25,982 nt of DNA from a virus. The DNA is taken from IMG/VR virus record IMGVR_UViG_3300025941_000087, positions 1-25,982 of that record; one strand, 5' to 3'. The notes beneath the pieces were generated by a model that was not told the origin of the DNA, made no database searches, and was given only the letters and a program-made list of their open reading frames with translations. Made by a program: the position numbers and the translations under genes. Of the stretch, positions 19,157-22,476 are shown piece by piece. Every line of letters begins with the position of its first letter. Position 1 is the stretch's first letter.

Positions 19157-19373
19157 CACGGCCAGGCTGTTCCGGCTGTTTGGCGGACGGGAGATCGTGA
19201 TGGCTGTGACGGGGACCACCCGGCAGGCAGCGAACCACTGGATGCACAACGGGGTGCCCTACAAGCACTGGCCGGCGATCCGTGAGGCGGCGGCCGAGGC
19301 TGGCATTCCCGGCATCACCGACGCGGCGCTGGCCTCGACGCGGCCACGGGCACGCCGGAAGGCCGCCGAGTGA
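19146..19373 (+). CDS. Cro-like small DNA-binding protein (75 aa)
   Basis: ATG 19146; the in-frame ATG at 19152 gives 73 residues. ARLFRLFGGREIVMAVTGTTRQAANHWMHNGVPYKHWPAIREAAAEAG has the YdaS/Cro-like helix-turn-helix pattern: 'FGG...A..TG....A..HW...G.P..HW..I..AA', with the recognition helix around TTRQAANHW. The basic tail (STRPRARRKAAE) may help DNA binding. It diverges from the repressor and is the first gene of the rightward modification and replication operon, the usual position of Cro. The stop overlaps the next GTG start (GTGA). Confidence 0.75.
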   Translation: MIMTTARLFRLFGGREIVMAVTGTTRQAANHWMHNGVPYKHWPAIREAAAEAGIPGITDAALASTRPRARRKAAE

Positions 19374-19852
19374 GCGCGGCGAACCCTGGCGGGCTGCATG
19401 AGTGGGACCAGGTGGCCTGCGCGTGGCTGCGGCAGCGCTGGGACGATGGGGCGGTCTGCAGCCTCATCGCGCGCGAGCTGGGCATCACCAAGAACGCCGT
19501 GGTGGGCAAGGTCCGCCGGCTCAGGCTGGCTCCGCGCGCCTCGCCGCTCCACGCCGCAGGCCAGCCGCGGCCTCCCGCGCGCCCCCGGCCGGTGAAGCCG
19601 CCGCGTCCACCGCGCCCGCCGAAGGCCGTGCAGGCGCCGCCGGAGCCTCGCCCTGTGCCTCCACCGCCGCCCCCGCCAGAGCCTGTGGCGCCGCGTGGCT
19701 GCCAGTATCCACGGGGGAACCGGCCGCACTGGGACTGGTGCGACGCGCCGGTGACCGGTCACGGGCCGTACTGCGCAGCTCATAGGGCTATCGCATATCT
19801 GCGGCCTGGCACCCGCGCCTGGATGCAGGAACGCGCGGAGGCTGCGGCGTGA
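19370..19852 (+). CDS. GcrA-family transcriptional regulator
   Basis: 160 residues from GTG 19370 (GTGA overlap). Residues about 12-55 (WDQVACAWLRQRWDDGAVCSLIARELGITKNAVVGKVRRLRL) match the GcrA helix-turn-helix, including the characteristic 'T+NAV.GK..RL' recognition helix. A very Pro-rich linker (about 66-108) leads to the GcrA-type C-terminal motif with C111, C124, C135 and H138 (CQYPRGNRPHWDWCDAPV, then GPYCAAH). In Caulobacter, GcrA binds RNA polymerase sigma70 and acts at promoters with methylated GANTC. A phage copy could redirect host cell-cycle genes or phage promoters. The methyltransferase genes next to it make a methylation link attractive but unproven. Confidence 0.85.
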   Translation: MSAANPGGLHEWDQVACAWLRQRWDDGAVCSLIARELGITKNAVVGKVRRLRLAPRASPLHAAGQPRPPARPRPVKPPRPPRPPKAVQAPPEPRPVPPPPPPPEPVAPRGCQYPRGNRPHWDWCDAPVTGHGPYCAAHRAIAYLRPGTRAWMQERAEAAA

Positions 19853-20865
19853 GGGTCCTCGATCTTTTTTCCGGTATCGGGAGCTTCAGCCTCGGCCTCG
19901 AGCGGGCCGGGTTCCGCACCTGCGCGTTTGTCGAGATCGATCCCTACTGCCGGCGGGTGCTGGCGAAGCACTGGCCGGAGGTGCCGCAGTACCATGACGT
20001 TCGAGAACTCACAGCAGATCGACTACACGGCGATGGGATTTTCCCAGATGTCATATGCGGCGGATTCCCTTGCACCGATATCAGCGTTGCCGGAAAGGGC
20101 GCAGGCATCACTGGACCACAGTCCGGGCTGTGGTCCGAGTTCGCCAGGCTCATTGGCGAGCTACGACCCCGCTACGTCATCGTGGAGAACGTCGCAGCTC
20201 TCCTTGTTCGGGGGATTGACCGAGTTCTCGGAGACCTGGCCTCGCTCGGGTACGATGCGGAGTGGGAGATTATATCCGCAGCATCCATGGGCGCCCCGCA
20301 CCGCCGGGAGCGCGTCTGGATTGTGGCCTACCCCGAGGGCCGGCGAGACGAGCGACCAGGCGAGCAGGCCGGGGCATTCGTTCAGTCTGTCGGCAGCTAT
20401 GCGCCAGGGGTGGGAGCCGCCGATGTTCCCGACTCCGGTGGCGAAGGACGATGGGAAGTCGTTCGCGGGCAGTTCGTGGAAGGGCCAGCACAGGGGCGCC
20501 ACGCTCACCACGTCAGTGCTTGCCGCTCAGATGTGGCCGACGCCGCAGGCGCACGACGCGGCGCCGGGGAATGCGAGCCGAGTGGGGCGCTACGGAACGG
20601 AGCACGGGGGGCGCAACCTGAACGACTGGGTGGCGCTGTGGCCGACGCCGACGATCAGCGGCAACCACAACCGCAAGGGCGCATCGGCGACATCGGGCGA
20701 TGGGCTGGCGACGGCGGCTGGTGGCGCGTTGAACCCGACGTGGGTCGAGTGGCTCATGGGGTTGCCTCTCGGGTGGACCGACTTAGGGCGCTAGGCAACA
20801 GCCTCGTGCCGCAGATTCCCGAAATGCTCGGGCGCGCGATCCTGGCGCGGCGGGCTGCGGCATGA
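19849..20865 (+). CDS. C5-cytosine DNA methyltransferase
   Basis: 338 residues from GTG 19849 (GTGA overlap). Motif I is at 5-21 (DLFSGIGSFSLGLERAG). The catalytic motif IV has Cys75 in CGGFPCTDIS. Motif VI is VENV (112-115), motif VIII is HRRERVWIVAYP (151-162), and the C-terminal motifs include RALGNSLVPQ (about 313-322). These give a standard 5mC enzyme using S-adenosylmethionine. The target-recognition region (about 165-300) is unusually Gly/Ala/Arg/Asp-rich. Codon use there is poor in this frame, because a second conserved reading frame occupies the same DNA (19994-20794). No cognate C-cutting nuclease is certain. It probably protects phage DNA from host restriction; specificity cannot be read. 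Confidence 0.88.
   Translation: MRVLDLFSGIGSFSLGLERAGFRTCAFVEIDPYCRRVLAKHWPEVPQYHDVRELTADRLHGDGIFPDVICGGFPCTDISVAGKGAGITGPQSGLWSEFARLIGELRPRYVIVENVAALLVRGIDRVLGDLASLGYDAEWEIISAASMGAPHRRERVWIVAYPEGRRDERPGEQAGAFVQSVGSYAPGVGAADVPDSGGEGRWEVVRGQFVEGPAQGRHAHHVSACRSDVADAAGARRGAGECEPSGALRNGARGAQPERLGGAVADADDQRQPQPQGRIGDIGRWAGDGGWWRVEPDVGRVAHGVASRVDRLRALGNSLVPQIPEMLGRAILARRAAA
19994..20794 (+). CDS. Overlapping-frame conserved phage protein (WPTP / NPTWVEWLMG type)
   Basis: Within the methyltransferase gene, the +1 frame is open from at least 19928 to the TAG at 20792-20794. From ATG 19994 it encodes 266 residues, but no clear ribosome-binding site marks the start. The product carries motifs of a recognisable phage protein type: DPATSSWRTSQLSLF, ETWPRSGTM, four W/F-P-T-P motifs (GLWPTPRA, MFPTPVAKDD, MWPTPQAHDA, LWPTPTISGN) and LNPTWVEWLMGLPLGWTDL. 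SSWRTSQ is encoded by the same bases as VIVENVA of the methyltransferase, and NPTWVEWLMG overlaps EPDVGRVAHG. In the 3' half, GC at third codon positions is higher in this frame than in the methyltransferase frame, by eye. How and whether it is translated is unknown. Confidence 0.6.
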   Translation: MTFENSQQIDYTAMGFSQMSYAADSLAPISALPERAQASLDHSPGCGPSSPGSLASYDPATSSWRTSQLSLFGGLTEFSETWPRSGTMRSGRLYPQHPWAPRTAGSASGLWPTPRAGETSDQASRPGHSFSLSAAMRQGWEPPMFPTPVAKDDGKSFAGSSWKGQHRGATLTTSVLAAQMWPTPQAHDAAPGNASRVGRYGTEHGGRNLNDWVALWPTPTISGNHNRKGASATSGDGLATAAGGALNPTWVEWLMGLPLGWTDLGR

Positions 20866-21116: not shown

Positions 21117-21544
21117 GTTACCGCCTCACTTCGCCGGTCGTGCCGGAGGATGAGTTGCACGCATCGGTCGCGTCGCTGCTACGCAAGCTGCTGCTGCCGC
21201 CGGCGAGATGGACGACGTTTCCGGCTGGCAGCGTGCCGCTCCCGCCGCAGTATGCCGCCAAGCTGGCGCGGCTCGGATTACAGCGCGGCTGGCCGGATAT
21301 CCTGGTGCTGCATGACGCGCGTATCTACGGCATAGAGCTGAAGCGGCGAGGTGGCGGGCTGAGCAAGACGCGCACCGTGCTGACGCGCAGTGGCGCGCAG
21401 AGGGTGCTGGAGGGCCAGGCCGATGTGTTCCCTGCGCTGGAGCGAGCCGGCATGCGGATCGCTGTGTGCCGTTCGGTCGATGACGTGGTGGATGCGCTCG
21501 TTGAATGGCGGCTGCCGATGATACCGGTGCGGGTGGCGGCATGA
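21113..21544 (+). CDS. VRR-NUC domain nuclease (143 aa)
   Basis: ATG 21113 overlaps the previous stop (ATGA); the longer upstream frame is filler. Residues about 12-130 match VRR-NUC: E14 in the first helix, GWPDILVL (D62), YGIELKR (E75, K77), and a closing helix after QADVFPALERAGMRIAVCRS. This is the PD-(D/E)xK fold in its stand-alone form, common in phages and proposed to cut branched or replication DNA; the eukaryotic relative is FAN1. The pattern D-x12-ExK is intact. It may act in replication or recombination, or as a nuclease tied to the modification enzymes. Confidence 0.82.
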   Translation: MSYRLTSPVVPEDELHASVASLLRKLLLPPARWTTFPAGSVPLPPQYAAKLARLGLQRGWPDILVLHDARIYGIELKRRGGGLSKTRTVLTRSGAQRVLEGQADVFPALERAGMRIAVCRSVDDVVDALVEWRLPMIPVRVAA

Positions 21545-22476
21545 GCGAGCTAGAGCCGCTCTCGGTACCACGCGGTCCGATTACCACGCTGGCGGATGCG
21601 GGGCAGGCACTGAAGGTGATTGCTGTCGCTGAGGCTGCGGAGACGCTGTGGGCACGCGCCAAGGACTCGAAAAAGATGTTCGAGGCGGTGGTGGCGAAGC
21701 TTACCAACCAGGCCGCTTATGCCGTCTGGCGGCAGAATGAGATCGTGCCATCGCAGATCACGGGCGGGCCTGGGCGCGGAAAACGGTTCGTAGAACAACG
21801 ATCCGTTTTACCGGCTGGAGATCCTGGAAAGGACGTTGTTGCCCGCTGGCGCCAGCGGCTGTGCAAGCGGATCAGTGCCAACGCCTGGTGTATGGACCAG
21901 GGGAAGTTTGATGCGGCGTTTGAGGACGCTTTCAGACGTTGTGTCCGCATCTGCGAGCAGGAGAATCTCGGCACCATCCGGGGCACTGAGGGCACTGGCG
22001 AGTTCGAGCGCTACACACCGAGCTTCTACATCGAGAAGGCGCGTGAGGTGCTCGGCGCCATCGACCTCGACCCGGCAAGCAGCGAATACGCGCAGCAGAC
22101 GGTGCGTGCGGGGAATTATTTTACAGTAGCGGACGATGGCCTGTCGCGTGAGTGGTTTGGCCGCGTATGGCTCAATCCGCCGTATCATCGCGAGCTGGCG
22201 CCGCTCTTCATCGACAAGCTGATCGAGGAGCGGATCAACAGACATGTCAGCGCGGCCGTCGTGCTGACCAACAACTCGACCGATACCGTGTGGTTTGAAA
22301 AGGCCGTGCGGTATTGCTCGGCCATCTGCTTCACCAGAGGGCGCATCCGTTTCGAGGTGCCAAACGCCGAGCCGGTGCTGCCGACGCAGGGCCAGGCGTT
22401 TTTATATTTCGGTAATGACCGGACGATTTTTACTGACGTATTTGATGCGGTCGGCTTCTGCGTGGAGCCGCTTTGA
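21541..22476 (+). CDS. Phage N6-adenine DNA methyltransferase (Dam type)
   Basis: 311 residues from ATG 21541 (ATGA overlap). The N-terminal 130 residues are helical (ALKVIAVAEAAETLWARAKDS) and may bind DNA. The C-terminal part matches phage adenine methyltransferases: FYIEKAREVLGAIDLDPASS (SAM region), then RVWLNPPYHRELAPLFIDKLIEE with the catalytic NPPY at residues 212-215, AVVLTNNSTDTVWF and RIRFEVPN. The product is N6-methyladenine in a short recognition site that cannot be read from the protein. It is coupled to the VRR-NUC gene before and the nuclease-like gene after. Confidence 0.85.
   Translation: MSELEPLSVPRGPITTLADAGQALKVIAVAEAAETLWARAKDSKKMFEAVVAKLTNQAAYAVWRQNEIVPSQITGGPGRGKRFVEQRSVLPAGDPGKDVVARWRQRLCKRISANAWCMDQGKFDAAFEDAFRRCVRICEQENLGTIRGTEGTGEFERYTPSFYIEKAREVLGAIDLDPASSEYAQQTVRAGNYFTVADDGLSREWFGRVWLNPPYHRELAPLFIDKLIEERINRHVSAAVVLTNNSTDTVWFEKAVRYCSAICFTRGRIRFEVPNAEPVLPTQGQAFLYFGNDRTIFTDVFDAVGFCVEPL

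Follow-up and report, generated by a model that had tools for sequence, protein, structure and literature searches.

Two reading frames on the same virus DNA encode the probable interlocked chains of one C5-cytosine methyltransferase

The window, the whole 25,982-base virus contig analysed here, encodes two proteins, alpha and beta, in overlapping frames, and both frames are under purifying selection beyond what each imposes on the other. We consider it likely, with a probability of about 0.83, that the two are interlocked chains of one C5-cytosine methyltransferase similar in kind to M.EcoHK31I and M.AquI, the gene of the small chain lying inside that of the large one. In this arrangement, the catalytic chain would be alpha, which has motifs I-VIII and X, beta, started internally at ATG 19994, would supply the variable/target-recognition region and motif IX, and the two would assemble into the active enzyme. 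DNA methyltransferases of phages usually mark DNA against host restriction, and marking of the viral DNA would most likely be the role of this enzyme too. The layout of the locus is as follows.

19370-19852: GcrA cell-cycle-regulator homologue (PF07750, E=3.4e-15), directly upstream and overlapping the alpha start by 4 nt
19849-20865, + strand: alpha, the C5-cytosine methyltransferase chain; GTG start, 338 aa, motifs I-VIII and X
19977-19982, + strand: candidate ribosome-binding site for beta, GGAGGT, inside the alpha codons for PEV and 11 nt 5' of ATG 19994
19994-20794, + strand: beta, the putative second subunit; ATG start, 266 aa, +1 frame, nested within alpha; an SSWRTSQ...WPRSG module, four xPTP repeats and the putative motif IX
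20062-20073, + strand: alpha motif IV (GFPC, with the catalytic Cys75; alignment A4)
20176-20197, + strand: alpha motif VI, VIVENVA, superposed with beta SSWRTSQ, whose columns exceed the alpha shadow
20237-20266, + strand: beta WPRSGTMRSG over alpha LASLGYDAEW
20324-20650, + strand: beta variable region with four xPTP blocks
20729-20785, + strand: putative beta motif IX, LNPTWVEWLMGLPLGWTDL, superposed on alpha EPDVGRVAHGVASRVDR (hhalign and two-frame conservation)
20779-20811, + strand: alpha motif X, RLRALGNSLVP (hhalign of the alpha tail)
21505-22476: Dam-type N6-adenine methyltransferase (PF05869, E=1.2e-14), downstream of the pair

An earlier sequence-only reading had noticed two open frames at 19994-20794, an interval that is exactly the ATG-started beta ORF in the +1 frame of alpha. 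The coincidences of motifs that it listed are also correct (VIVENVA/SSWRTSQ at ~20176-20197, VAYP/LWPTP at ~20321-20335 and EPDVGRVAHG/NPTWVEWLMG at ~20731-20760). Its description of the methyltransferase gene as fully overprinted applies to 19994-20794 and not to the first 145 nt and the last 71 nt of alpha, the latter with motif X, which are single-coded. The beta frame is open already from 19928, upstream of its ATG, and ends at the stop at 20794. The xPTP blocks, at beta residues 111, 145, 181 and 216, read VAYP, VPDS, VADA and VADA in the alpha frame. The GcrA homologue adjoins two DNA methyltransferase genes in the window, and the other neighbours of the pair are RecT and a primase/helicase-like gene.

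Stops in the beta frame were counted against shuffles that retain each alpha protein and its codon usage. Across 117 loci, including loci of 36-44% GC, 2 stops were seen compared to 402 expected, and the window itself has none compared to 4.4 expected (P<1/400). For motifs VI-VIII, beta-frame column identity was 0.456, compared to 0.257 in alpha-synonymous shuffles; for the motif IX region the two values were 0.60 and 0.25. Outside the overlap, the corresponding values were 0.22 versus 0.19 past the beta stop and 0.256 versus 0.211 on the 5' side. Loci selected through alpha alone gave the same beta excess over VI-VIII (+0.206) and an excess of +0.179 over the IX region. Single columns stand out, with seen and expected identities of 0.84 and 0.28 for W and 0.81 and 0.23 for Q of SSWRTSQ, and of 0.93 and 0.21 for P, 0.61 and 0.15 for R and 1.00 and 0.28 for G of WPRSGTMRSG. 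In the motif IX region alpha is also conserved above the beta shadow (+0.213); since each frame is conserved beyond the shadow of the other, the bases there carry two motifs. Sum-type z-scores are inflated by relatedness (the non-overlapping parts also reach z~20) and were not taken as evidence; effect sizes relative to the non-overlapping parts and a wobble analysis were used instead.

The wobble analysis compared 14 related pairs of loci. Substitutions at alpha positions 1/2/3 were 0.135/0.078/0.395 on the 5' side of the overlap, 0.507/0.259/0.274 in the linker/xPTP region, where the beta wobble position dominates, 0.182/0.089/0.118 over motif IX and 0.223/0.170/0.515 past the beta stop. The substitution load thus moves from the alpha wobble to the beta wobble position within the overlap and back again beyond it. 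Over beta residues 1 to ~46 the frame is open and the sequence is weakly constrained, with a position-3 rate of 0.391, as outside the overlap. As a negative control, 18 ordinary full-profile bacterial C5 methyltransferases, taken from genomes that also carry beta-type loci, showed 166 stops compared to 167.4 expected and an excess identity of about zero. Collectively, the stop, residue and wobble tests show that alpha and beta are dually coded, bearing out the earlier proposal of real dual coding under joint constraint.

Alpha has the hallmarks of a C5-cytosine methyltransferase (PF00145), with motifs I, IV (PC), VI (ENV), VIII and X, and matches phrog_363 (E=3.7e-81). Its match to PF00145 (E=5e-43) is limited to profile positions 1-165 of 324, and neither the Pfam match, the AlphaFold model nor hhalign of the tail revealed a recognisable TRD or motif IX on this chain. 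The tail matched ordinary methyltransferases at motif X only (hhalign E=1.2e-5). In the AlphaFold model, pLDDT was ~97 over most of aa 1-160, 93-97 in the C-terminal helix and mostly <50 over aa 167-312, and the closest folds found by Foldseek were M.HhaI and M.HaeIII (~166 columns, rmsd 1.5). Since the region predicted to be disordered, aa ~167-312, lies exactly where the TRD and motif IX are expected, these are the pieces that alpha appears to be missing. The alpha frame stays open through this linker, the sole route by which the chain reaches motif X.

Beta matches phrog_1008, 'DNA methyltransferase' (E=2.8e-36), and had no match in Pfam or NCBIfam; a sequence search of the PDB also found nothing. 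Its AlphaFold model has a mean pLDDT of 60, is firm only over residues ~50-100 and ~248-262, and has no PDB match, the Foldseek comparison being meaningless. The C-terminus, LNPTWVEWLMGLPLGWT, aligned in register with RRLTPKECQKLQGFPDWF, motif IX of ordinary C5 methyltransferases, in a short and modest match from one comparison (hhalign E=3.3e-4). This match was obtained with the C-terminal slice alone, whole beta giving none against ordinary methyltransferases, and with the whole canonical profile it had P=0.05. The same slice matched relatives that have IX and X in one frame (hhalign E=6e-20), and these in turn matched ordinary motifs IX-X (hhalign E=8.5e-6). Pfam gave no matches on the beta chains of split relatives and did not see the IX-X part of VRedHorse gp68, so profile-profile comparison was used. 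No similarity was found between the xPTP region and ordinary TRD sequences. Among 95 relatives, each beta has 0-5 xPTP blocks (1-4 in 91 of them), spaced mostly 25-40 aa apart. The repeat unit is ~30-35 aa (window 20324-20650, L082 and L126).

The nested arrangement recurs, mostly without annotation, in viral contigs and bacterial genomes that number in the hundreds. At least 597 relatives of beta were found in IMG/VR, and an alpha relative lay one frame behind on the same DNA in all 80 loci fetched through beta. Selection through alpha gave beta in the +1 frame at 34/34 loci, for a viral-contig set of 114 loci (one contig common to both selections). The sequence-only reading would have been undone by routine second-frame stops in homologous methyltransferases; such stops are found in ordinary C5 methyltransferases and not in this subfamily. 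GTDB genomes hold at least 450 relatives of beta, and in a sample of 200 species from one phylum a match was found in 14 including the deliberately chosen centre genome, or in 13 of the 199 others. Among 80 GTDB loci fetched, 62 are nested as in the window, nine are nested with motif X slightly downstream of motif IX, five have motifs IX and X on the beta chain, two have motif X in an ORF of its own and two are cut by contig ends, so that 71 of the 78 classifiable loci are nested. The separately encoded beta that the earlier reading proposed to look for was absent, with no free-standing beta away from an alpha at these 78 loci. In 22 genomes searched with PF00145, beta was absent from all 18 full-profile enzymes checked and present at 10 of the 11 partial-profile alphas fetched. 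The exception (L318), an alpha-type gene of a Pseudomonas genome with an unusual N-terminus, is probably degraded.

Variant layouts join the pieces differently. The xPTP/IX segment is in frame with motif X in L250, L266, L270, L227, L276, TaylorSipht gp41 and Heather gp36, and gp68 of mycobacteriophage VRedHorse combines motifs I-VIII and the xPTP/IX/X part in a single chain. The I-VIII part and the xPTP/IX/X part lie in different frames in Ovechkin, a relative of VRedHorse. These related phages, about 81-93% identical in aligned pieces, have seven xPTP copies (Ovechkin) and two (VRedHorse), the shorter VRedHorse form having alpha and beta in one frame. The genomic loci L257 and L267 have motif X on a third ORF, which shares the frame of alpha, and their enzyme would either need three pieces or be decaying. 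The alpha gene of mycobacteriophage Jinglebell (L086 1500-2600) appears to carry a frameshift immediately past motif VI, and genes in this region have been called on the other strand.

Beta is most likely the missing half of the enzyme, carrying target recognition and motif IX, because alpha lacks the TRD and motif IX, a chain of profile matches leads from beta to motif IX, relatives have the segment in frame, and beta and full-profile enzymes are mutually exclusive. The partner protein suggested by the sequence-only reading is therefore real as a second protein, and looks like alpha's missing piece and not like an independent product. From the complementary motifs, the exclusivity with intact methyltransferases and the in-frame relatives (IX segment with X, or with I-VIII), we infer a two-subunit function, in which the xPTP region would set target specificity. 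Beta could instead be a genuine overlapping protein that is no subunit of the methyltransferase and acts, for instance, in inhibition, regulation or anti-restriction. Such a role would fit with the lack of any fold or family match outside motif IX, and with the conserved nested ORF of Streptococcus phage methyltransferases in which motif IX is retained. We regard it as unlikely, since alpha lacks exactly what beta resembles, beta was never found without alpha at the classifiable genome loci, and the segment runs into motif X in split and fused relatives and forms one chain with I-VIII in VRedHorse.

The canonical-like Streptococcus phage C5 methyltransferases (MM1, Javan64 and SpSL1) keep their own motif IX together with a conserved, stop-free +1 ORF spanning alpha codons ~50-185 (L125, L130-L209, L124 1652-2077 and L320 2828-3910). 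Position-3 differences in these loci fall from 0.23 to 0.05-0.06 within the nested ORF and return to 0.22-0.28 beyond it. An SD lies ahead of an in-frame ATG in 17 of 19 loci, mostly AAGGAG 12 nt upstream at codon 50. The nested ORF is shorter than the window's beta, and its end, CSLSDILEEEVDERYFLS, resembles a post-motif-VIII segment shifted to the other frame; it is annotated in MM1 (ORF14) and unannotated in SpSL1. The SpSL1 methyltransferase has been reported to be active (PMC6755750). As this family keeps motif IX and yet has the nested ORF, the nested module may do more than supply motif IX.

How beta is started bears on a further alternative. An SD of at least 5 nt with an in-frame ATG was present in 33 of 99 relatives, compared to 13.4+-3.1 in alpha-synonymous shuffles, and the control +2 frame gave 9 compared to 13.8 expected. 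The expectation of 13.4 is preferred to an earlier 6.7, for which the shuffles altered the start rule itself. In 28 of the 33 the site falls at alpha codon index 47-49. Because SD-ATG sites are enriched over shuffles and nearly all lie at the same alpha codon, internal initiation of beta is likely in relatives that have them; in two thirds of relatives no SD is recognisable where beta starts. Alternatively, ribosomes might make a programmed +1 frameshift near motif VIII and so join alpha I-VIII to the TRD/IX part of beta in a single chain. The nested loci do have the +1 frame relation, and a single +1 shift would complete a I-X chain in the split relatives L250, L270 and TaylorSipht. However, beta stops 5' of motif X in the nested loci, so that a shifted chain would lack X, and neither the conservation of beta for ~50 codons 5' of motif VIII nor the internal SD-ATG is needed for frameshifting. 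We therefore consider this mechanism improbable.

It is more improbable still that alpha is a relic, with function only in beta or in neither chain. Conservation of the alpha linker is little above the level imposed by beta (0.20 versus 0.15 expected), and linker substitutions in the 14 related pairs are mostly nonsynonymous for alpha, as a relic would predict. Against this, the catalytic residues of alpha, including C75, are invariant across 81 sequences (alignment A4), the alpha frame has 0.00 stops per locus compared to 4.89 under beta-synonymous shuffles, and past the beta stop motif X shows both conservation and the ordinary wobble pattern. Finally, if the second frame were no more than the functionless shadow that a conserved methyltransferase casts in GC-rich DNA, some beta motifs would be accounted for, as the final GMMRNG/TMRSG part is largely forced by alpha GYDAEW (expected identity already high), but this can be dismissed given stop and residue conservation above synonymous shuffles down to 36-44% GC, the beta-wobble substitution pattern and the lack of any such signal in ordinary methyltransferases.

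Returning to the interlocked two-chain enzyme, its origin may be sketched from the composition of the overlap. The sequence-only reading had seen by eye that GC3 moves from the first frame to the second, and alpha GC3 does fall from 0.85 (codons 1-40) to 0.60-0.68 (codons 161-300), where GC1, the beta wobble position, is 0.85-0.90. We take this shift as the trace of a frame change after motif VIII. The 3' part, with the variable region and motif IX, would have moved to the +1 frame at this point, the beta ORF would have grown in the upstream direction across motifs IV-VIII, and beneath beta the former frame would have been kept open with alpha still reaching motif X, so that the halves overprint each other reciprocally. 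In the 5' overlap the methyltransferase motifs must be the older reading, and in the 3' overlap beta (variable region and IX) seems to behave as the main reading, with alpha mainly kept open. Of the fusion or frame change with a relic product considered earlier, a 3' change of frame may well have given rise to the pair, and neither product is a relic. More tentatively, the pair may represent a large and mainly unannotated mobile-element class of C5 methyltransferases with reciprocally overprinted halves, in which specificity lies in tandem arrays of ~30-35-residue xPTP units on the nested chain whose copy number varies between close relatives. If so, specificity could be re-tooled by loss of xPTP repeats with the catalytic domain untouched.

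To our knowledge, long same-strand overlaps with purifying selection in two frames have rarely been demonstrated in prokaryotes, and the hundreds of relatives of this one, across a wide GC range, make it an uncommonly favourable natural case for testing dual coding. A nested second chain would also explain why many phage C5 methyltransferases are annotated as lacking a TRD and motif IX, the remainder being in another frame; the long ORF alone, cloned or annotated, would be an incomplete enzyme. Parts of this picture are already known, namely two-chain C5 methyltransferases, the naming of both phrog_363 (alpha) and phrog_1008 (beta) as 'DNA methyltransferase', and a few phage records that annotate nested pairs. 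The two PHROG entries are listed separately and are silent on the shared DNA. In Paenibacillus phage Toothless, gp53 and gp54 are annotated as a nested pair, both as DNA-cytosine methyltransferase, with LNPDWVECLMGFPIGWTDI in the nested gene; this case is annotation only, no analysis of it having been found in the open-access literature, and its sequence is divergent. No published account of the alpha/beta overlap was found in the open-access literature, a scope outside which most subscription papers lie. What appears to be new is how widespread the arrangement is, that its dual coding has formal support, that beta has TRD-side content and that motif IX is superposed exactly on alpha EPDVGRVAHG.

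M.EcoHK31I is a two-polypeptide C5 methyltransferase whose small chain is also reported to be read from an alternative frame that overlaps the large one. The title of the 1995 report of Lee et al. on this enzyme states that two proteins are required. In M.EcoHK31I (YGGCCR), the large chain carries motifs I-VIII and X and the small chain carries motif IX (PMC3404938, citing Lee et al. 1995), and the predicted TRD has been placed in the large subunit (PMC3404938). The window pair resembles this enzyme in how the motifs are divided, the large chain having I-VIII and X and the small one the putative IX. Unlike in M.EcoHK31I, alpha has no ordered TRD region, and it is the beta frame in which the variable region is conserved; since alpha lacks the TRD expected of the large chain, we class the pair as an M.EcoHK31I-like variant and not as a proven member. 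M.AquI (CYCGRG) pairs its catalytic chain with a second one that holds motifs IX-X along with the distal variable region (PMC3404938). L250, L266, L270, L227, L276, TaylorSipht and Heather are laid out in this way, their second chain having both IX and X; the window differs from M.AquI in that motif X remains part of the catalytic chain and the second gene lies entirely inside the first. The pair sets M.EcoHK31I, a curiosity of 1995, beside a widespread family, with a beta match in 13 of the 199 other species sampled from one phylum.
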